NCBI GenBank assembly: GCA_949152475.1
Contig: OX424566.1
Location: forward strand, 11,431,177-11,495,176
Direction: 5' to 3'
From: Terebella lapidaria
Taxonomy: Eukaryota > Annelida > Polychaeta > Terebellida > Terebellidae
DNA length: 64,000 nucleotides
Under the pieces are notes generated by a model, which was not told the origin of the DNA, did no database searches, and saw nothing but the letters and a program-made list of their open reading frames with translations. This document shows, in pieces, positions 29,962-61,710 of this stretch. The position numbers and the translations under genes are program-made. Position 1 is the stretch's first letter. Each line of letters opens with the position of its first letter.

Positions 29962-30757
29962 TTATTTGTATACAATACTTTTCCGTTTTTCCCATAGCTG
30001 CATTATATATTTTGCACACAATTTCAAGTTATGACTCATACTGTACTTCAATTTCTCGACATCCGAAATATTTATAAAGTCAGGTACACATGATTTACAA
30101 AAATAAAAAAATTGTTTCCTTTCTTTCCGATAACCTTTGCATACAAACATGAAATGTATCTCGTCCTCAACATCAACAGAGTTACATATATTACAAGTTC
30201 TTTCTTCTATTGTCATTCTTCTGTATATGCCTTTAGTTGTATCGAATACATTTTGAAAGCGACCGGTTTCTGTGAGCAATGGGAGGATATCAAATCTGAA
30301 CTGTGCAAATACAGATCTAAAATACTTAGAACTACAGCAAATTATATAGGGTTCTACCTGGAAATCAAATTTAAATTCTCTATATGTTCTTAACTTTGGT
30401 TTCTTCTGTACAGTTGTTTTCCATTCATCACACATATGTTCATAACACCTGTTGTAAACCACAACATCATCAAATATAGACTTAGATTCATAAACATGTG
30501 CTAGACCTAATTCATCTGAAATTTTCATAATTTCACTGCACCAATTGTGACATGGATTATCATAACACCATAAAAATATTTTTTTTTGTAATTCTATTTT
30601 TGTCTAACTGAATGAGTCTGTTCCAGAATTTCAACATCTGAATATATATGTAATAGTATGAACGGTTGTTGCATTTTAAACCACAAAATGGTGTTTTTGA
30701 AGTAGAAACACACAGGTACATATAGCTGTTGCATGTATATATATTATTTAGTATCAA
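29962..30757 (-). pseudogene. C-terminal fragment of a non-LTR retrotransposon ORF2
   Basis: The minus-strand frame 30528-29962 (188 codons) has the layout seen downstream of RT in many animal non-LTR elements. An Arg/Lys-rich segment around 'KLRTYREFKFDF' is followed by 'RFDILPLLTETGR' and a zinc knuckle C-x2-C-x9-H-x4-C ('CNICNS' to 'HFMFVCKGYR'). A frameshift at a T run near 30580 separates it from an upstream in-family frame (30757-30590) that contains 'FWNRLIQLDKNRI'. The RT core, endonuclease and 5' part are missing, as expected of a 5'-truncated insertion. It is a different family from the element at the right edge. Confidence 0.75.
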
Positions 30758-31129: not shown

Positions 31130-31846
31130 AGACGTGGAATCAATACCCAGTATTCCGAGCAAACAAAACAGGGTCCGTTATCCAATCTCATAATCCGGGG
31201 ACAGAAAGTCATATCAGCATACGAAGTGAGAGAAAACAAAAATGACAGGGAAACTCATGAACCCCCAAAAATGGCCATTAGGAGGTGAAATCAGGTGTTC
31301 CGGAAAGAGTGAGCATTTCCTGCCCCACAAGTGGCACCCGTCATGAATTCCCCAAAATTAACATGGAAATAGATCTAGTTGCATGGCAGATATGGATTTG
31401 CTGTATTTATCAACCAGATCATGATGACGTCCATAGAATTTCTTAAAAGCAGTTATAAGTCTTGGTAAAACATATCCTTGTCGCAGCAGTTTAGAGACTA
31501 GCTGGGCACTTCAATAGACAAAGTCCTCATATTTGCAACTAGATCTGGAATAGCGTATAAGTTGAGAAACAAACACACCATATATATATGCCGGTGACAT
31601 AGGAATGTTGCTGCTTAGAAAAGGGAAATTGACTGTGGAAAAATTGAAATCATCACGTTTGTCATATAATCTAGTTGACAGGTTAGAATCATTATCAATC
31701 TCCAACCTCAGGTCTAGATAGTTGGAAAAAATTGCGGAGTCTGTAGTAGTTAATTTCAAGTTCCTTAGGATATATGACATCCAAATAATCACCAAACTTG
31801 GGATTATTTAGCGACAATACATCATCTATGTATCGGAAATTGAAAT
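31130..31846 (-). pseudogene. 5'-truncated Penelope-like element, copy 1
   Basis: It starts with the shared 3' terminus 'agacgtggaatcaata' and matches 58234-58946, covering the 3' tail and the last part of the RT ORF from just after the YIDD region. The frame is broken by indels, including two extra bases in the 'catatatatatgcc' run and one in 'aaaaaattgcgg'. 'tgaaat' flanks both ends (31124-31129 and 31841-31846), a possible 6-bp target duplication, although the right one overlaps element sequence. Confidence 0.85.
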
Positions 31847-32486: not shown

Positions 32487-32492
32487 AACCAT
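32487..32492. other. Target-site duplication AACCAT (left)
   Basis: Six-base duplication matching 35487-35492. A 6-bp duplication is characteristic of Polinton/Maverick integration. Confidence 0.9.
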
Positions 32493-32554
32493 AGTAGTAA
32501 GGACCCCCCTTTGAGTTTTTTTTGGAAAAACCCATGGTTTTTGCTATGGTTATA

Positions 32555-32604
32555 TGATGTCACTTCCGGTTTTGGTTTCGGTGGTTATATGACGTCACTT
32601 CCGG
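32555..32604 (+). promoter_or_regulatory. Duplicated CRE/ETS-like modules in the left arm
   Basis: 'tgatgtcacttccgg' (32555-32569) and 'tgacgtcacttccgg' (32590-32604) join a CREB/ATF site (TGACGTCA in the second) to an ETS core (ACTTCCGG). Composite sites of this kind occur in TATA-less animal promoters. That they drive transcription inward from each arm is an inference. Confidence 0.5.
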
Positions 32605-32622
32605 TTTCTGTTTAGGGTTCGT

Positions 32623-32960
32623 CATAACGTACCCGTAAATGTTTGAAAAATCATAACGTTCCCATAAATGTTTGAAAAATCATAACGTACAACCCATGAT
32701 ATGGAATATCATAACGCACCCATAAAAGTTTGGAAAATCATAACGGTACCATAAATGTTTGGAAAATCATAACGTTCCCATAAATGTTTGAAAAATCATA
32801 ACGTACCCATAAATGTCTGAAAAATCATAACGTACCCATTTATGTCTGGAAAATCTTAACGTACCCATGATTGTCTGAAAAATCATAATGCACCCAAATG
32901 TCTCAAAAAATCATAATGCACCCATAAATTATCGACATTCATTACACACCCATAAATGTT
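32623..32960 (+). repeat. Subterminal repeat array, left arm
   Basis: About eleven imperfect units of 24-30 bp built on 'cataacgtacccataaatg' plus 'tttgaaaaat', with variants such as 'taatgcaccc' at the inner end. It could be a binding array for a trans-acting factor or a replication signal. It is not a CRISPR array, since units are contiguous and have no unique spacers. Confidence 0.85.
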
Positions 32961-33105
32961 TTGAATATTATGATATATATTTCAATACATTATGAAATCA
33001 TTTTTATTCACTTTATTAGTAAATTTTCTTTAACTTTGTTTTTACTATTTTTGTTTGATTTTTCCCTTTTTCAATCTATATTCAATCTGGAAAAAAAAAT
33101 GAGTG

Positions 33106-33253
33106 AGTATATGACATTTTTACAGGGTTCTTCATTTCACAGTACACATTTACTATACATACAATTTCTACATACAATCAAAAGGCATGTGAAAAAGTAC
33201 ACATGCACAATATACAGTTATCATGACAGATAGAGTGGGGTAGGGTTTTCTTC
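33106..33253. other. Short spacer between left arm and ATPase stop
   Basis: 148 bp with no frame of note. It forms the 3' untranslated region of the ATPase gene. The left arm beyond it provides AATAAA-type signals on the minus strand (around 33001-33015). Confidence 0.5.
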
Positions 33254-34876
33254 TCAATATTCAATGTCCTCATCCATGGAGTCCTCTTCTTCCGGCTGAA
33301 CAACATCATCAAAGAGATGATTGAGATTATCCATGGACAAATTCAGCGCTTCCTCAAAGTTGGCTCCCCGTCCCATATATTTTTCCACAGCTTTCATGAT
33401 TTCCGTGTGGATCATGCTTCTTTGCAACAAATGGTTCATCTTTACCATGGTTTTGTACATTTCCATCAACCCAATCTTCATTTCCAGTTTCGCCTCATCT
33501 TCGGGCAACTCGGGTGTATATTCCATGACGCGATGCAGCAGGTACTCAAAGGCCGTTTCGCATACGTCATGATCCTGGACTCCCTTGCATCCATTTTGGA
33601 ACCAGCTTACGACTTGATCGAACCAGTCATGTTTCATCATGATAGCCATGTTAAGCGCATCTTTGAATGTAGCACCTCGCGCTCTGTATTCTTCAACCGC
33701 CTTTTCAATTCCAGCATGAATCCGACTTCTCTGGAGCAGATGGATGCAATTCGCCACTCTCTGGTAGGTGTTAATCAATTCTTCTTTGATTTTTTGCGCG
33801 ACCTCCTCTTCCGGCACTTCTTTTTCCTCAATTTCGCCCTGAACAGACTTCAGCATGCGTTTGAAGGCGCTTTCGTCCATTTTTCTGGGGAACTCGTCTT
33901 CCGATGACTCGTCATCGTGTGCGGGACATCTCGGCAAGTGCATTTGTAGCTCATAGTTATTCGAAAACAGGGCTCCACAGCTGAAACATTTCATTGTCTT
34001 GTCTGACTGCCATTCTAGAGATTTTGTATTACTTTGAGATGCTGCGGGTTGGCCCGAGGCTGGACTCTCGGATGACTGACTGTGAAGCGGGTTCGGTCGC
34101 AGGCGTTTATTTTCCTGCGTTGTCGGTTTCAGGTCCACGACAAGATGTCCGTAGGGCTCAGAGGTTGCGCTGTCGAACTCTTGAAGAAACTTTTGGGGGC
34201 AGGCGGGATACATTTGCCTGGCCAGGGTCATGATTTGCTGCTGATCAATAGGGTTTCTGAACAGAGTCAGATAATGACAGTTTCTCCTCTGAGTCGGGTC
34301 CTTGCTGTAGTAGAGGTTCTGGTTCAAGCAAATGACGCTCAGGTTCCGATGGTGGCTCCCTTCCGTGAACAAGTCCGTGATTCTCGGATCCTTGGCGGAA
34401 ATAGACATGAGGTCGTCCAGGACGATGACGTTATTGTCCGTAGGTGAGACGAAGTCATCGGAATCCAGATTGATAGGTATCCCCTGTATGAACTGCACGG
34501 GAGGCTGCACACTAGACCTTACGATGTCGTAGAGGGGTTGCCATCTCTTGTACAGCCATATGATCCTGGTAGGGGCGGGGAATATTTGACCGGACTCCAA
34601 GAGGGATTTTACCCAAGCCGTCTTCCCACACCCAGTAGGTCCTGACACGTTCAGGGTGAAGGGGTGTTGAAATACCAGGGGATCCATATAATTGACGGAC
34701 CAGTGCTTTTGCTGCTGTGGCTGAGGATGAGGCTGCCAAGCCTGTGGCTGTGGCTGAGGCTGTGGCTGTGGCTGAGGCTGAGGCTGAGGCTGTGGCTGAG
34801 GATGAGGCTGAGGCTGAGGCTGAGGCTGCCAAGGCTTTGGCTGAGCCTGAGGCTGAGGCTGTGGCTGCCAAGCCAC
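33254..34876 (-). CDS. Polinton-type A32/FtsK-like packaging ATPase with C2HC finger and duplicated helical domain
   Basis: Numbering starts at the GTG at 34876, the first codon after a TGA. Residues 4-56 are Pro/Gln dipeptide repeats. The ATPase domain spans about 64-262, with Walker A GPTGCGKT at 79-86, Walker B NVIVLDD at 149-155 and 'LFTEGSHHRNLSVICLNQNL' at 169-188, typical of virion-packaging ATPases of Polintons and adintoviruses. A zinc finger C297-x2-C300-x12-H313-x3-C317 follows. Two imperfect copies of a helical domain of about 60 residues ('LLQRS.IH..I.KAVE.Y..RGA.F..ALN') lie near 356-415 and 456-515, then an acidic tail. No ATG lies upstream in frame. The first in-frame ATG is codon 64 (34685-34687), which keeps the whole ATPase core and would give 477 residues. 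The ATG supplied by the right arm (34880) is in another frame. In viruses this ATPase packages DNA; its role in a capsid-less element is unknown. Confidence 0.85.
   Translation of the reverse strand: MAWQPQPQPQAQPKPWQPQPQPQPHPQPQPQPQPQPQPQPQPQPQAWQPHPQPQQQKHWSVNYMDPLVFQHPFTLNVSGPTGCGKTAWVKSLLESGQIFPAPTRIIWLYKRWQPLYDIVRSSVQPPVQFIQGIPINLDSDDFVSPTDNNVIVLDDLMSISAKDPRITDLFTEGSHHRNLSVICLNQNLYYSKDPTQRRNCHYLTLFRNPIDQQQIMTLARQMYPACPQKFLQEFDSATSEPYGHLVVDLKPTTQENKRLRPNPLHSQSSESPASGQPAASQSNTKSLEWQSDKTMKCFSCGALFSNNYELQMHLPRCPAHDDESSEDEFPRKMDESAFKRMLKSVQGEIEEKEVPEEEVAQKIKEELINTYQRVANCIHLLQRSRIHAGIEKAVEEYRARGATFKDALNMAIMMKHDWFDQVVSWFQNGCKGVQDHDVCETAFEYLLHRVMEYTPELPEDEAKLEMKIGLMEMYKTMVKMNHLLQRSMIHTEIMKAVEKYMGRGANFEEALNLSMDNLNHLFDDVVQPEEEDSMDEDIEY
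34700..34872 (-). repeat. CAG/CCT-type repeat coding Pro-Gln dipeptides
   Basis: Imperfect hexanucleotide array. It reads as Pro-Gln in the ATPase frame and as Ser-Ala in the frame opened by the arm's ATG. Such arrays slip easily, so a one-base change here could connect or disconnect the arm's start codon from the ATPase frame. Confidence 0.85.
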
Positions 34877-35486
34877 TCATTTTTTTTTCCAGATTGAATA
34901 TAGATTGAAAAAGGGAAAAATCAAACAAAAATAGTAAAAACAAAGTTAAAGAAAATTTACTAATAAAGTGAATAAAAATGATTTCATAATGTATTGAAAT
35001 ATATATCATAATATTCAAAACATTTATGGGTGTGTAATGATTGTCGATAATTTATGGGTGCATTATGATTTTTTGAGACATTTGGGTGCATTATGATTTT
35101 TCAGACAATCATGGGTACGTTAAGATTTTCCAGACATAAATGGGTACGTTATGATTTTTCAGACATTTATGGGTACGTTATGATTTTTCAAACATTTATG
35201 GGAACGTTATGATTTTCCAAACATTTATGGTACCGTTATGATTTTCCAAACTTTTATGGGTGCGTTATGATATTCCATATCATGGGTTGTACGTTATGAT
35301 TTTTCAAACATTTATGGGAACGTTATGATTTTTCAAACATTTACGGGTACGTTATGACGAACCCTAAACAGAAACCGGAAGTGACGTCATATAACCACCG
35401 AAACCAAAACCGGAAGTGACATCATATAACCATAGCAAAAACCATGGGTTTTTCCAAAAAAAACTCAAAGGGGGGTCCTTACTACT
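34874..35486 (-). repeat. Right terminal inverted repeat (613 bp)
   Basis: Inverted copy of 32493-33105. It lies directly upstream of the ATPase gene and should hold its promoter, leader and an ATG (34878-34880). The CRE/ETS module is at 35375-35389, the weaker one at 35410-35424, and the subterminal array at about 35019-35356. Confidence 0.95.
35375..35424 (-). promoter_or_regulatory. CRE/ETS-like modules upstream of the ATPase gene
   Basis: Mirror image of 32555-32604: 'ccggaagtgacgtca' at 35375-35389 and 'ccggaagtgacatca' at 35410-35424. They lie about 500 bp upstream of the arm's ATG, at the outer tip of the element. This is a likely transcription-factor landing site; use is inferred. 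Confidence 0.5.
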
Positions 35487-35492
35487 AACCAT
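35487..35492. other. Target-site duplication AACCAT (right)
   Basis: Matches 32487-32492. The flanking sequence then continues as the tandem unit seen at 27370. Confidence 0.9.
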
Positions 35493-36430
35493 CACCGATG
35501 ATTTAACATAAGTTATTTTTCATACTCAAATTTGCACCCCAGTTTTCCAGTATACATATGAATATGATATTACATGCACAATACAATGCTTACACAAGGT
35601 CCATTCACCAGTTATGCTATATCTTTCACGTGCATATCCACTTACATTGTATTCAGTGAACATTGACAATTTGTCACCAGGCCATTACTTCAGCAAACAC
35701 ATCATGTATCATATGACACGGTGATGACGAATAATCATTAACGTACATACACATAGCTTTTATCCTACGTGTAACACGAACGAAAACGAACGAACGATCC
35801 TACCTGTAACATGTCATGTTGCATGTACAATGGATTTTACTTATTTCCATACAAGTCAGGGACATATAGTCAGTACTCATCGTATAAATGTGATAAGTTC
35901 CGTGAAGTAAGGCTCGGATTGAACAGTGTTAACAGTGGTCTGTTGTGTGTTATAACACGGTTCATGAGCAGAACTGTTTGGTATCACATTTTGTTGGGTT
36001 ATCTCGTCGAGGATTGTATCTAGATCCATCGTTCGTTTTTTTTATAGTTTTTTTGTATCACTTTCTATCAAATATTGATATCTTACACTTGACTTCTCAC
36101 TGTTCATATAAATGATTTACCTACGCCCGTTGCGATAAACGTAATCGAGCCGAATACAGTAATTCTGAGATAGGCCTATCCATCAAAATGTATTATCAAA
36201 AGTGGCAAATAAAGTGCTCCCAAGAAAACAAATTATTCACGTAATCAACATAACTCAAATGAGCACTATTGGCATCATGTAGAAATGGCATGAGATGTTG
36301 GGGGGTGGGGGTGGGGGGAAACTACTTTTGATTGGATTTTGCTCGAAGTGCTTACAAAAAAACGAGTCAATTAATGATAAGTCATATGTAGAATGTGAAT
36401 GAGATATTGGACAATAATGATCTAAACTCC
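35493..36430. repeat. Tandem unit, copy 3 (after the mini-Polinton)
   Basis: Matches 27370-27990: 'gcaccccag', 'cacaaggtccattcaccagt', 'gccattacttcagcaaacac', 'agtgctcccaagaaaacaaa'. I see no gene. Confidence 0.65.
36300..36318 (+). other. G-rich tract with quadruplex potential
   Basis: Runs of six, five and six guanines separated by single thymines. The homologous place at 27880-27890 lacks it. G-quadruplex formation is possible but untested. Confidence 0.5.
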
Positions 36431-36511
36431 ACTTATTGGTGTTCCACTATTTATGATGCGGATATGCGACTTTATCCATAGATCCAGTTGGAGACGGTTT
36501 ATTGTTATATG

Positions 36512-36867
36512 TAAGTAAGTATCGATCTATTACCACCAATACAGCCAAATTTTGATGATTCCAATAACAAACATACAGCTTTTTGCAATAGAAACAAAGC
36601 CCGACCAATTATTTTATCAAAAGACACACTGTCATCATCAGGGGCAGACAGTGTGGTAAATGTAGTTGTTTCTACTGTACACCTGATGGAATTAGTAAAC
36701 AACTGCCCAACAACCCATGGAAACAATTTAGAAATCCGAAACAAACCCATGGACTAGATATATGATAAGTACATAAGTACCTAATCACAACCCAAAAGGC
36801 TACTGAGTTGATGGTACCCTCGAGGATAGATTTAACGTCCACCAGCAGTGACACCGGCTCAGTGGTA
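36512..36867 (-). repeat. SINE-like dispersed repeat, copy Y (insertion in copy A)
   Basis: Longest member of the family. Copy B lacks it: 'gtcatatgt' joins 'tatacaccgatcaata' at 49711. Minus-strand order: 'cggtgtcactgctggtggac', 'cagtagccttttgggtt', then the core shared with copies X and Z. The 81-codon frame inside is open but has no recognised domain. Confidence 0.7.
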
Positions 36868-37206
36868 TGAACACCGATCAATGTGCTACTGGATGATGGG
36901 CCCAGCAATTTATTACACACGTCTTCGATACCGTGATGAAAAAGGAGAAAACATGCCCCTTCAATTCTGATAATAGATAATACGCTAATTGAATTATTTT
37001 ATTTTTACTTCTATTTCATATACTGGGCGATGACGTATATATGTATCCACATGTAGTCACTGCCGTCGAAATTGTGCATGTTAAAGTTTGCAACATAGAT
37101 AATGAATTAACCGAGAACGTATTGATACCTTTGGCTGATTATCTGATGGTGGCGAAAGAGATAACTTAACGAAGTTTGATCAAGACTGTATCACGTGTTA
37201 ATACAC

Positions 37207-37266: not shown

Positions 37267-37721
37267 TAGTTAGTCGCATAAATTGCAGAGCAAATTATCG
37301 AAGGCAGTACCAAGTATGCAAGGAAGATAAAATAATAAAGTTAAATATGAGGTGGTTGATATTTTAGTTAGTTGAAGTGAAAAATTCATTTTACTGTATT
37401 TCGTTTCATGACCACAACAACATCAGAAAAATATGATAACATGTATGGTATGCATATGGAAATTCAAGAGTTCAGAAAGGCTGTAAAATATTCATTTTAC
37501 TGTATTTCTATTGTACGTAATATTCTGAGTGATCTGAACCGAGTCCTTAATCCAATTTCGATATCCAGGGTGAGGCTAAATTTGGAATCTTTTGAGGAAC
37601 TTGCCATGAACTGCCATATATGGCCATAGAAGCAGAAATCAGTATTCCTTGGTCCACATGTGACGCCCATATCCATCTTAACACCACATATTCATCTTCA
37701 ACAATTTATGATGTAATTTAA

Positions 37722-38273
37722 AGCAGCTGCCTTCGAATGTATGCAATATTTTCTTCAAAACTAAATTTTAGTGCAACACATTTAATACAAGATAATCAAA
37801 CATGTGCACATTGATTTTGACGATTACACTCCGTCGGAGTTGTCTTTTTATCCGATTCATCACACATTTTATGCCAGTTTTGTATATAAACAAACGAGCT
37901 GTATCCATCACACGCAGATGTAAACAAAGCGTCAAAATGCAAGGTGGACTGACAATTCCACACATAAAACGGTATATCACTAAATATTTTCTCATAACTA
38001 CACCATATTTGCAGATACGAACTGGAAAATGTACTCAATGTGGAATTGTAGGGCCAATTTGGGCATTTGTTTTACATTCGGATTTGATGGATACACTTCG
38101 TTTGTTTTTAAACAAAACTGGCATAAAATGTGTGTTAAATCGGATGAAAAGACAACTCGGATATAGTGTAATCGTCAAAATCAGTGTGCACATGTTTAAT
38201 TATCTTGTATTAGATGTGTTGCACTAAGATTTAGTTTTGAAGAAAATATTGCATACATTTGAAAGCAGCTGCT
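37722..38273. mobile_element. piggyBac-type MITE, copy 2 (insertion in copy A)
   Basis: A 552-bp palindromic element of the same family as 6336-6875. Left end 'agcagctgccttcgaatgta', right end its inverted relative 'tttgaaagcagctgct'. TTAA precedes it (37718-37721) and TCAA follows (38274-38277), a TTAA duplication with one change. In copy B the site is uninterrupted ('gtaatttaagatcctc' near 50980). The 141-codon frame at 37802-38227 and its inverted counterpart come from the palindrome and are not a transposase. Confidence 0.85.
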
Positions 38274-38425
38274 TCAAGATCCTTATATGTTGCATAACAA
38301 TGCAATTGCAAGGCTAAAAATACAATCACAGGAAACCTAAAATGAATATTGATGAAACTATTATGAAACTTCCCAAAGACCAAACGAACATAGTATGAAT
38401 GACAGTTTGAATTTTAAAATTCGAA

Positions 38426-48074: not shown

Positions 48075-49106
48075 AGACGTGGAATCAATACCCAGTATTA
48101 AGTATTCCGAGCAAAACAGGGTCCGTTATCCAATCTCATAGTCCGGGGACAGAAAGTCATATCAGGCATACGAAGTGAGAGAAAACAAAAATGACAGGGA
48201 AACTCATGAACTCCCCAAAAAGGCCATTAGGAGGTGAAATCAGGTGTTCCGGAAAGATTGAGCATTTCCTGCCCCACTAGTGGCACCCGTCATGAATTCC
48301 CCAAAATTAACATGAAAATAGACCTAGTTGCATGGCAGACATGGATTTGCTGTATTTATCAACCAGATCATGATGACGTGCATAGAATTTCTTAAACGCA
48401 GCTATAAGTCTTGGTAAAACATAACTTTGTCGCAGCAGTTTAGAGACTAGCTGGGCACTTCGATTGACAAAGTCCTCATATTTGCAACTAGCTCTGGAAT
48501 AGCGTATAAGTTGAGAAACAAACACACCATATGCCGGTGACATAGGAATGTGCTGCTTAGAAAAGGGAAATTGACTATGGAAAAATTGAAATCATCACGT
48601 TTGTCATATAATCTAGTTGACAGGTTAGAATCATTATCAATCTCCAACCTCAGGTCTAGGTAGTTGGAAAAATTAGCGGAGTCTGTAGTATCCTTAATTT
48701 CAAGTTCCTTAGGATATATGACATCCAAATAATCACCAAATTTGGAATTATTTAGCGACAATACATCATCTATGTATCGGAAAGTGAAATTAAAATTACA
48801 TGTTAGTTTCTTAGAACCTCTTCGTTGTAAATGTTGGATAAAATCTGATTCATATGACTATAAAAACAGGTTTGCCAATAATGGTGCACAGTTTGTACCC
48901 ATGGGAATACCAATAGTTTGTTGAAATATTCGACCACCAAATTCCACAAAAATATTATCAATCAGAAAATTAACCATATTTACCACATCTATTTCAGTAT
49001 ATTTGTATGGGGCATCAGAGTCGCCTTTAACAAAGTAAGCGGTATTATATTTAACTATAATGTAGTGGTACCGACGTTGGCCATTTTTAGAGAAAAATGA
49101 ATTATT
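48075..49106 (-). pseudogene. 5'-truncated Penelope-like element, copy 2
   Basis: It matches 58234-59266 closely, from the shared 3' end 'agacgtggaatcaata' to 'aaaaatgaattatt', after which the sequences part. It keeps the RT block with GIPMGTNCAP and, on the other side of a frame break, the region after YIDD. A one-base loss in 'ggaatgtgctgc' (near 48547) and a stop inside the 'LANLFL' region disrupt the frame. The element lacks the N-terminal half. Confidence 0.9.
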
Positions 49107-58233: not shown

Positions 58234-60423
58234 AGACGTGGAATCAATACCCAGTATTAAGTATTCCGAGCAAACAAAACAGGGTCCGTTATCCAATCTC
58301 ATAGTCCGGGGACAGAAAGTCATATCAGGCATACGAAGTGAGAGAAAACAAAAATAACAGGGAAACTCACGAACCCCCCAAAATGGCCATTAGGAGGTGA
58401 AATCAGGTGTTCCGGAAAGAGTGAGCATTTCCTGCCCCACTAGTGGCACCCGTCATGAATTCCCCAAAATTAACATGAAAATAGATCTAGTTGCATGGCA
58501 GACATGGATTTGCTGTATTTGTCAACCAGATCATGATGACGTCCATAGAATTTCTTAAACGCAGCTATAAGTCTTGGTAAAACATATCCTTGTCGCAGCA
58601 GTTTAGAGACTAGCTGGGCACTTCGATAGACAAAGTCCTCATATTTGCAACTAGCTCTGGAATAGCGTATAAGTTGAGAAACAAACACACCATATGCCGG
58701 TGACATAGGAATGTTGCTGCTTAGAAAAGGGAAATTGACTATGGAAAAATTGAAATCATCACGTTTGTCATATAATCTAGTTGACAGGTTAGAATCATTA
58801 TCAATCTCCAACCTCAGGTCTAGATAGTTGGAAAAATTAGCGGAGTCTGTAGTATCTTTAATTTCAAGTTCCCTAGGATATATGACATCCAAATAATCAC
58901 CAAACTTGGGATTATTTAGCGACAATACATCATCTATGTATCGGAAAGTGAAATTAAAATTACATGTTAGTTTCTTAGAACCTCCTCGTTGTAAATGTTG
59001 GATAAAATCTGATTCATATGAGTATAAAAACAGGTCTGCCGATAATGGTGCACAGTTTGTACCCATGGGAATACCAATAGTTTGTTGAAATATTCGACCA
59101 CCAAATTCCACAAAAATATTATCAATCAGAAAATTAACCATATTTATCACATCTATTTCAGTATATTTGTATGGGGCATCAGAGTCGCCTTTAACAAAAT
59201 AAGCGGTATTATATTTAACTACAATATAGTGGTACCGACGTTGTCCTTTTTTAGAGAAAAATGAATTATTGATTAGTTTTTTAAGCTGAGACTTCAGTTC
59301 AGAATGAGGTATAGTTGTGTACAAAGTGGAGAAATCAAATGTTTTGATAGACGTTACTTTTGAAAGTGTGTGAGCATGTAGGTATTCCAATAAAGATTTG
59401 GAATTTTTTAATATCCACATTTGGTTTACACCACTTCTAGAATAGATGGTTTCAGAGTACTTTTGGAGACCCTGTTTAATTTTAGACAATATAACAGTTA
59501 ATATTTTTGAAAGGGCTTTGGTAGAACATGACGCTGAACCTGAAATATATCTTTGTTTGTGTGGATTTTTGTGCAACTTTGGGATCCAATATAAGTTTGG
59601 TAGATTAGAATCTTTACATGAGGTAGTAATACCAAACGAATGCAATACGGACACATGATTTGATAAGATATCCTGTTTGGGCACGGTAATGGCTTGGTAT
59701 GTACTATTGGAATTAGTATTGTTGGCAATACCCAGTTCGTTAAACAGACACTGTATATAGTATGCTTTACAAACAAAAACAACATTATTAGAAGCTTTAT
59801 CTGCAGGGACAATGACGAACCTTTCTTTAAGTTTCAACAAACTATTAGTAACCACGGGATCATTGAAGACAGAGCTGTATTTAGTACTAACTGACTTTGA
59901 CAAAACATTAATGCGTTTGTTTACCAATGACCTAATCTGTTTGACCCATTCTGACAGAGAATCAGTTTCTGCCTTTTCTCGCTTTGTCCATTTTCTGGCA
60001 TGCTCCTCAACTGCATCCATGATTAACTTGAAATTGTATCTCCATGAAAACGACGTGGGCTCTCTATATTTGGGACCTTTGGACAAAATGTCTTTCAATG
60101 ATTCATTCTCCACTATATTGAGGTCGCCTGAAATAACATGCCCAACTGGATCGTGTATGAACGGAGAGTTAATGCAAGTGCAGGAGGGTGGGTTATGTAA
60201 GAGATCATCAATATCCAAATCATTCAATGTTTGTTTGTAGTTGAATATCTCGGAAGCAACAGATTTGGTATATGAGTAGGATATAGATGGAGCGGCCGTG
60301 TCAGTGAAGTATGATGGTACCTGGGACTGAACAGACTTATGATGTAATATATTACTGATGTTAATTGCATCGATACCTTTATTGGCAAATTTTATCTTCA
60401 GAAAAGACCGTTTGGACAAGATG
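58234..60423 (-). mobile_element. Penelope-like retroelement insertion in copy B
   Basis: Bounded by comparison with the empty site at 44202. Left flank 'tctagttat', right flank 'tatatttgtac', giving a 3-4 bp duplication (TAT or TATA). The minus strand runs RT ORF, then a 236-bp 3' tail ending at the terminus shared with copies at 31130, 48075 and, decayed, 5716. The 5' border lies a few bases before the first codon read, so the copy is probably 5'-truncated. No long terminal repeat is present. Confidence 0.9.
58470..60419 (-). CDS. Penelope-like reverse transcriptase, long intact ORF
   Basis: 649 codons without a stop, from a TTG at the insertion border; the true start is missing. The N-terminal region has a C-x-C (80-82) in 'SCTCINSPF'. 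'IPKLHK' (279-284) is the PxxHK-type motif typical of Penelope RTs. RT motif A is 'FDFSTLYTTIP' (Asp362), motif B 'GIPMGTNCAP' (449-458), and motif C YIDD (494-497) with both catalytic aspartates. There is no C-terminal GIY-YIG endonuclease, unlike canonical Penelope. That fits endonuclease-lacking clades or the group with an N-terminal endonuclease (Naiad/Chlamys type), whose 5' part would be lost here. RT would copy element RNA at a nick or DNA end. The intact frame implies a recent insertion. Confidence 0.85.
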   Translation of the reverse strand: MSKRSFLKIKFANKGIDAINISNILHHKSVQSQVPSYFTDTAAPSISYSYTKSVASEIFNYKQTLNDLDIDDLLHNPPSCTCINSPFIHDPVGHVISGDLNIVENESLKDILSKGPKYREPTSFSWRYNFKLIMDAVEEHARKWTKREKAETDSLSEWVKQIRSLVNKRINVLSKSVSTKYSSVFNDPVVTNSLLKLKERFVIVPADKASNNVVFVCKAYYIQCLFNELGIANNTNSNSTYQAITVPKQDILSNHVSVLHSFGITTSCKDSNLPNLYWIPKLHKNPHKQRYISGSASCSTKALSKILTVILSKIKQGLQKYSETIYSRSGVNQMWILKNSKSLLEYLHAHTLSKVTSIKTFDFSTLYTTIPHSELKSQLKKLINNSFFSKKGQRRYHYIVVKYNTAYFVKGDSDAPYKYTEIDVINMVNFLIDNIFVEFGGRIFQQTIGIPMGTNCAPLSADLFLYSYESDFIQHLQRGGSKKLTCNFNFTFRYIDDVLSLNNPKFGDYLDVIYPRELEIKDTTDSANFSNYLDLRLEIDNDSNLSTRLYDKRDDFNFSIVNFPFLSSNIPMSPAYGVFVSQLIRYSRASCKYEDFVYRSAQLVSKLLRQGYVLPRLIAAFKKFYGRHHDLVDKYSKSMSAMQLDLFSC

Positions 60424-61710
60424 TATATTTGTACATCTTTTAGGTAATTGACATGTCTTCATTCCGTACTCGGAATCACCTTTATGATCCTTATTGAATA
60501 AATGAGAAAGTAAGCGCAGGATATGATACGTGGGATGTAATTCCTTGTCAATGAAGCTGTGTAACCTGCCACATTCTCATATGTGAGCAGACGGTGAAGC
60601 ACGATAGTTTTTGATATGGCGTTTGTGATGAGCATCCTGTTTTGGCATGGATCTGACTTGATCAGTGCAGAAAAGCTGAATCTATATTCGTATTTCCAAT
60701 CCTTTCCAGTCATGTTTTAACGTTGCCATCCTGTGACAGTTAAGTGATTATCAAACGCTACATGCCATATTTCACTCTGTACGCCACTCATATCGTGTAC
60801 AATACAGCTAGGATGCTGCTGAAGATGTATTACATAATTATATCTAGCCTGTACCTTATATAATCATCGGTAGTACACGTTGCCCAGTGTTTAACTAAAA
60901 ACAGGAATTTATTGAAACAGTTTCTTCTCCAAGATATAAAATAGATTGGAGTATATATATGAATATATTTTTGAAATAAACAGACCTTAGCTCCTTTTTG
61001 TTGGTCCGCAAATCGGTTTACACGGATGATTACATAAGAAATGGGGCGATTCAATCTGTCATTTTGGGTTCAGTTGACAAATTGCACAGACTAATTTGCA
61101 GACAAGTTGTCTATCAAACCCACAATTTTTTTATCCACAATTCTGTTATTCCTGATTTATTCCCATGATTTCTTTAACACCATTATTGGGAAATGATGGT
61201 GGAATATTGGATGAATGGTGTAAATGCCCCTGCTTCAACACCACAAAGTGACACTTCCTCATTATACCTGAAAAATATTACAAACCTAAACAAATTCACA
61301 AGCTGAGGTACAGTTCTCTGATCTAAAAGTGTTACAAGGACTTGATAGTTCGAGATTTCATGACAGGAAATGTAATGCACCGGGAAGGCTGTGAAAACTG
61401 GACAACAGTATAAAGAATACATTATAGTACACCTGGTATAAGAGTATATGTATACCCGAACTTACTTTCCGTATGAACTGTCAATAATTACCGTCTTGAA
61501 CACGCTTAGGAATACCAAACGGGACAGTGGTGGAGATAGAGCATGCAAGTCTCGTATTTGTCTCTGTCTTATTCCAATGTCAGTTCATATTTCCAGGCTC
61601 AGATATGTGCCGTCGTCACGAAAGGCTCTTGATTCATTAATCATTATCCCTTGTGATTTCTCAGTGTCAATATACAGTAACAGTTTGCACTATTACTGGA
61701 CAAACAATGG

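Follow-up and report, generated by a model that had tools for sequence, protein, structure and literature searches.

A 3-kb element with Maverick/Polinton-type ends and a packaging ATPase as its only long gene in Terebella lapidaria

In this work, we analyzed a window of 64,000 nucleotides from the polychaete Terebella lapidaria (contig OX424566.1 of assembly GCA_949152475.1, positions 11,431,177 to 11,495,176 of the forward strand) and, within it, a complete element of 2994 bp that occupies positions 32493-35486 of the window. The element is bounded by two inverted arms of 613 bp each, begins with AGTAGT, ends with ACTACT and is flanked on both sides by AACCAT, a perfect 6-bp target site duplication. 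Of the 1768 bp between the arms, 1434 belong to one open reading frame (ORF), which codes for a packaging ATPase. We consider it very probable that this element is a non-autonomous Maverick/Polinton, which would derive from a full-length Maverick and be mobilised in trans.

Structure of the element and of its insertion site

The features of the element are the following, in window coordinates:

32487..32492, no strand: left target site duplication, AACCAT
32493..33105, plus strand: left terminal inverted repeat, 613 bp, starting with AGTAGT (arm-against-arm match 612/613)
32622..32961, plus strand: 29-bp tandem array of 11.8 copies in the left arm (Tandem Repeats Finder, TRF, score 359; repeat families D2/D3)
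33003..33017, minus strand: pair of AATAAA hexamers of poly(A) type, located in the left arm and following the ATPase gene when read along its strand (pattern scan, consensus matches only)
33106..33253, no strand: 148-bp spacer from the left arm to the stop end of the ATPase ORF
33254..34687, minus strand: packaging ATPase ORF, 477 amino acids (Pfam Pox_A32, 528 homologues, domain copies, structural model and fold search)
34688..34876, minus strand: Gln/Pro-rich codons in frame with the ATPase, with no ATG (stop-to-stop ORF of 540 amino acids)
34714-34867: 6-bp tandem array within the Gln/Pro-rich stretch
34874..35486, minus strand: right terminal inverted repeat, ending with ACTACT (arm-against-arm match 612/613)
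34878..34880, minus strand: ATG in the right arm, at its inner edge; its frame differs from that of the ATPase and gives a 122-amino-acid ORF
35005, minus strand: TATATA in the right arm, on the gene strand (consensus match only)
35018..35357, minus strand: 29-bp tandem array of 11.8 copies in the right arm (TRF score 366)
35487..35492, no strand: right target site duplication, AACCAT

The sole mismatch between the two arms lies at arm position 446, and the insertion context reads TAAACCAT, then the element, then AACCATCACC. A whole-window inverted-repeat scan (seed 16, at least 60 nt) found the next-longest inverted pair to be 221 nt, and the terminal 17-mer matched the window at two places with up to three mismatches (0.05 expected), both of them the ends of the element. 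The G+C content is 49% in the core between the arms, 31% in the arms and 36% in the 5-kb flanks on either side. Because a single mismatch separates the arms, the insertion would be recent or the arms would have been evened out at the last replication. The joined flanks matched no empty copy of the site inside the window. An assembly artefact was rejected on the grounds of the perfect target duplication, the published end motif (see below) and the intact ORF.

The packaging ATPase gene

The ORF at 33254-34687 is the single long ATG-initiated frame of the element, as the initial annotation had proposed; when the 1768-bp core was shuffled base by base 300 times, the longest ATG-initiated ORF averaged 84 amino acids and reached at most 175. 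Three lines of evidence (Pfam, homology and fold) identify the product as an A32/FtsK-type packaging ATPase; the same annotation had named it a packaging ATPase. First, the Pfam family Pox_A32 matched with an E-value of 5.4e-5, at 23.2 bits marginally above its cut-off of 22.8, and Adeno_IVa2 matched below its family cut-off. Second, a protein search with the 477-residue sequence returned 528 homologues, the best 120 of which were used in all analyses of relatives reported here. The organisms named among these 120 are Pecten, Mizuhopecten, Mytilus, Pinctada, Mya, Solemya, Mercenaria and Ruditapes, all of which we take to be bivalves, plus the bacterial symbiont assembly Sedimenticola. Third, the predicted structure (mean predicted local distance difference test score, pLDDT, 79.6, and above 90 over most of residues 1-200; predicted template modelling score, pTM, 0.51) gave 985 matches in a fold search, 78 of them at E <=0.001. 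The best 50 include adenovirus IVa2, A32-like packaging ATPases of giant viruses, the FtsK-like protein of a Drosophila-associated adintovirus (rank 17) and the Sputnik protein V3 (rank 24). Template modelling (TM) scores reached 0.70 when normalised to the target and 0.22-0.34 when normalised to the query, the latter being low because the alignment is limited to the ATPase core. Comparison with PHROGs gave weak matches only, the best (0.0021) being to a family of unknown function.

The protein consists of the ATPase core (approximately residues 1-205), a C-terminal Cys-rich finger (approximately 234-254) and two helical domains (293-361 and 404-474). When residues 255-477 were searched alone, none of 599 candidates matched at E <=1e-3. 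The two helical domains are copies of one C-terminal domain, scoring 34.4 and 44.9 bits against its profile, and none of the 87 relatives that carry this domain has it twice. Since the copies share just 32 of 71 residues and 118 of 213 bases, the doubling is old.

At its other end the protein is without the N-terminal part present in most of its longer relatives. Where at least 60 residues precede the core, which is the case in 45 relatives, 34 bear an N-terminal C2H2 finger there and 11 lack it by pattern; in 26 of the 45, the core is preceded by a linker rich in Pro or Gln (25% P or Q or more, counted by eye). These counts leave aside the remainder of the 120, in which the sequence before the core is shorter than 60 residues or was missed by the pattern; many of these may be fragmentary or have a wrongly placed start. 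The ATPase of the element has neither the N-terminal finger nor an in-frame ATG upstream, and the edge of the right arm stands at this place: the Gln/Pro-rich frame upstream of the ATPase, which resembles the linker of many relatives, is open up to a stop codon located at the arm's inner edge, and the only ATGs on the gene strand between this edge and the core are those at 34880 (within the arm and out of frame) and 34687 (that of the ATPase). Thus, the right arm seems to have replaced the beginning of the ATPase gene. Two relatives, P0062 and P0079, are Ala-rich rather than Pro-rich before the core, similar to an Ala/Ser-rich out-of-frame reading of the linker in the element.

Conservation of the core was scored by column over the other 119 rows of the alignment, skipping columns with fewer than 90 other rows filled or with a gap in the query; for the tree and for this analysis P0047 was dropped from the 120, as the motif used for cutting is missing from it. 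Of the columns conserved at the 95%, 90% and 80% levels, the element ATPase keeps all 53, all 78 and 94 of 97, and the median relative keeps 100%, 97% and 95%, respectively. In the tree, its terminal branch measures 0.43 against a median of 0.18, and no well-supported set among these relatives contains it. The core is thus kept as well as in the rest of the family despite the long branch. The ATPase has evolved under constraint over most of that branch, be it within a full-length predecessor or after the element became short.

Relationship to Mavericks/Polintons

Intact Mavericks of vertebrates are described as elements of 12,723-24,620 bp, marked by 6-bp target duplications, with arms of 46-1447 bp, the commonest end motif being (AGT)2 // (ACT)2, with (AG)3//(CT)3 also in use (PMC8097293). 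The element of T. lapidaria bears this commonest motif, a duplication of the same length and arms that fall within this range. The nearly identical 613-bp repeats and the 6-bp duplication had been part of the initial annotation, and the AG ends that it recorded are now extended to the full vertebrate motif. Polintons are further characterised by a size of 15-20 kb and by genes for a polymerase, an integrase, an ATPase and a protease (PMC4028283). The element carries the same kind of packaging ATPase as Mavericks/Polintons (Polintoviricetes; adintoviruses), but differs from them in (i) its size of 3.0 kb, compared with 12.7-24.6 kb, (ii) the lack of a polymerase, integrase or protease match, and (iii) an ATPase without the N-terminal finger and with a doubled C-terminal domain. 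An autonomous Maverick is set apart by its size and by a protein-primed DNA polymerase B, an rve integrase, major and minor capsid proteins and a protease; the polymerase, the integrase and the protease had no match in the element. Searches by tblastn with the integrase and chromodomain parts of the relatives, the protease part of P0115 and a polymerase-like fragment from the locus L001 (described below) gave no match in the window at E <=0.01, the ATPase alone being matched. There is no room for capsid genes beside the ATPase, as judged by the available length rather than by capsid profiles. With no match to a polymerase, integrase or protease and no space for capsid genes, the element should be unable to copy or integrate itself.

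The relatives of the ATPase are linked to other Maverick genes. We scanned by Pfam seven of the 120, chosen for their visible extra parts, and found that the same predicted protein continues from the ATPase into an rve integrase (P0040) or a chromodomain (P0074, P0092), or runs into an adenovirus-type protease (P0039, P0115, P0050 and P0083, the first two scoring above cut-off and the last two below). A search of prokaryote genome contigs gave three stretches matching a pattern, of which one locus was retained (L001, 1-5687, on a contig of a mussel-symbiont assembly). In L001 the ATPase adjoins broken frames that we take, by their motifs, to be pieces of a protein-primed polymerase. Given the linkage of the relatives to other Maverick genes, we rejected capture of the ATPase from an unrelated source. 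Whether the gene had been kept or captured was left open by the initial annotation; its retention fits better, both for this reason and because the frame is cut at the edge of the arm. Together with the complete ends, the arms, the duplication and the ATPase-only gene content, this linkage upholds the earlier description of a complete non-autonomous Polinton derivative.

Several observations weigh against this interpretation. The matching end motif is taken from vertebrate Mavericks and not from those of bivalves. Among the seven scanned relatives, Pox_A32 is above cut-off only in P0074; it falls below in P0040, P0050, P0083 and P0092 and is not listed in P0039 and P0115, whose assignment as ATPases comes from the homology search. 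Gene prediction may have fused neighbours into some of these multidomain proteins, in which case the linkage would still hold. Besides, the arms of the element have no significant match in L001, and sequence searches of solved structures found no packaging ATPase, either with the query alone (two weak, unrelated matches) or with the family profile (best 60 of 88 matches: mainly zinc fingers, with weak P-loop matches such as guanylate kinases). Searches with the element and its terminus found only the element itself in the window, with no second copy and no helper; the viral contigs (by protein, alignment and terminal 17-mer) and the phage records likewise held no relative. Finally, expression of the ATPase is uncertain, since the ATG at 34880 opens a different reading frame.

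In P0039, P0050, P0083 and P0115 the protease occupies the place of the C-terminal helical domain of other relatives. Maverick-type ATPases also turn up in assemblies that bear the names of bacterial symbionts, namely Thiodubiliella (from a Bathymodiolus mussel; L001) and Sedimenticola (P0069); both probably represent DNA of the animal host that was binned together with the symbiont, and L001 is read as Maverick DNA of the host.

The window contains further repeats. One retroelement end is present in three copies (31190-31846, 48138-49106 and 58301-60700), the two shorter ones being 96-97% identical to the longest, which holds a reverse transcriptase frame of 662 amino acids on the minus strand (RVT_1, 27.9 bits against a cut-off of 29.6). 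PF01541, which we take to be GIY-YIG, is found in 7 of 120 listed relatives, and the retroelement is presumably Penelope-like. At 29962-30528, on the minus strand, lies an ATG-initiated frame of 188 amino acids with no Pfam match and a Cys-rich end that, to our eye, resembles the tail of polymerases of retrotransposons without long terminal repeats (non-LTR). An inverted repeat of 221 nt, 87% complementary and with 118 nt between its arms, forms a hairpin-like element at 37718-38277, and the right flank (35487-36986) contains pieces of several dispersed repeats, which are 81-95% identical to sequences elsewhere in the window. Rfam gave no matches in the window.

Origin of the element and its possible significance

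How could such an element arise and move? In the scenario that we favor, a full-length Maverick would have lost everything but its two arms and the packaging ATPase gene, cut at its linker. The arms and ends would act in cis: the protein-primed polymerase of a helper Maverick would copy the element from the arms, priming at the ends, and the integrase of the helper would insert it, giving rise to the 6-bp duplication. The ATPase could be translated from the internal ATG just before the core, from a transcript that would start in the right arm (TATATA at 35005), read inward and proceed toward the AATAAA hexamers of the left arm (33003-33017). Helpers are to be expected, since Mavericks were present in every genome analyzed in a survey of molluscs (PMC10294476).

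The combination of features has partial counterparts in other systems. Non-autonomous DNA elements of other superfamilies, such as miniature inverted-repeat transposable elements (MITEs), likewise keep two arms, have lost the machinery and are presumably moved in trans; unlike them, the present element retains an intact packaging gene, of which MITEs have none. Phage satellites that redirect packaging and virophages are small elements that rely on a larger partner and in which a packaging function is kept by the small one, whereas the element described here is known from its sequence alone and in one copy. Capsid-less Mavericks share with it a partial loss of genes, although nine of the elements described as lacking the capsid gene (MCP) also lack the ATPase and the protease (PMC4028283), whereas the element keeps the ATPase alone. 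The literature searched, which left Repbase and most subscription papers outside, yielded no ATPase-only element among the papers listed and none of the names tried for a miniature or non-autonomous Maverick or Polinton.

Within the non-autonomous Maverick reading, three narrower and overlapping versions of it can be considered. We give an even chance to a one-off internal deletion, by which a Maverick would have lost its middle shortly before or at insertion, leaving the ATPase as an accidental remnant and no 3-kb family. A single copy is known, and the missing finger, the absence of an in-frame upstream ATG and the preceding out-of-frame ATG are signs of a cut through the gene. In addition, if recent, as the single mismatch in 613 suggests, the insertion would leave any ORF intact without selection. 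On the other hand, the deletion would need to have spared both the core and the C-terminus, and the doubling of the C-terminal domain is old; its absence from the 87 domain-bearing relatives means that no full-length Maverick with this form of ATPase is found among the 120.

The second version, that of a multiplying 3-kb family whose own ATPase loads the short genome into the particles of a helper Maverick, appears to us somewhat unlikely. The initial annotation had raised it as a possible hyperparasite of Polintons. Its logic is comparable to that of phage satellites that redirect packaging. The ATPase is the only long gene retained, its core preserves all 78 columns with a conservation of at least 90% on a branch more than twice the median length, both copies of the doubled domain fit the family profile, and the arms and ends are complete and nearly identical. 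Against it, neither a second copy nor a helper was seen in the window, the viral contigs or the phage records; the selection could have operated on a full-length predecessor; retention of the conserved columns is usual in the family; and the nine capsid-less Mavericks that also lack the ATPase and the protease display the opposite pattern (PMC4028283).

In the third version, which we regard as improbable, the N-truncated ATPase would join the motors of helpers and poison packaging, either as interference by the element or as a host-domesticated gene. Loss of the finger, a doubled C-terminal domain and an intact ATP-binding core would suit such an interfering variant, but the near-identical arms and the perfect duplication speak for a recently moved element and not for a settled host gene. 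Last, it is highly improbable that another cut-and-paste transposon captured a Maverick ATPase: Ginger elements are short (Ginger1 about 2.6-7 kb), have integrase-like transposases and bear arms of 40-270 bp, but their duplications are of 4 bp (5 bp in TDD-4 and TDD-5) instead of 6 bp and Ginger1 ends begin with TGTNR instead of AGTAGT (PMC2836005), while arms of 613 bp fall within the Maverick range (PMC8097293).

Under the preferred reading of a non-autonomous Maverick mobilised in trans, it may be asked whether the ATPase benefits the element in some way, which we would suggest only tentatively, being inclined to doubt it. If the element is one deletion copy only, it would still provide a neat example of a non-autonomous Maverick with both ends complete, and its arms with their 29-bp tandem array could be read as candidate minimal cis-acting sequences. 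Mavericks encode capsid genes, and the vertebrate survey of 2021 describes their particles as unobserved (PMC8097293). Were the element a member of a multiplying family, it would constitute genetic evidence for selection on packaging in animals and would predict both a helper and a particle. That 3-kb satellites of this kind form a family living on Mavericks, each encoding only a modified ATPase that loads its short genome into helper particles, we hold to be unlikely; if it were true, Mavericks, which are virus-like transposons, would have virus-like parasites of their own in animals.

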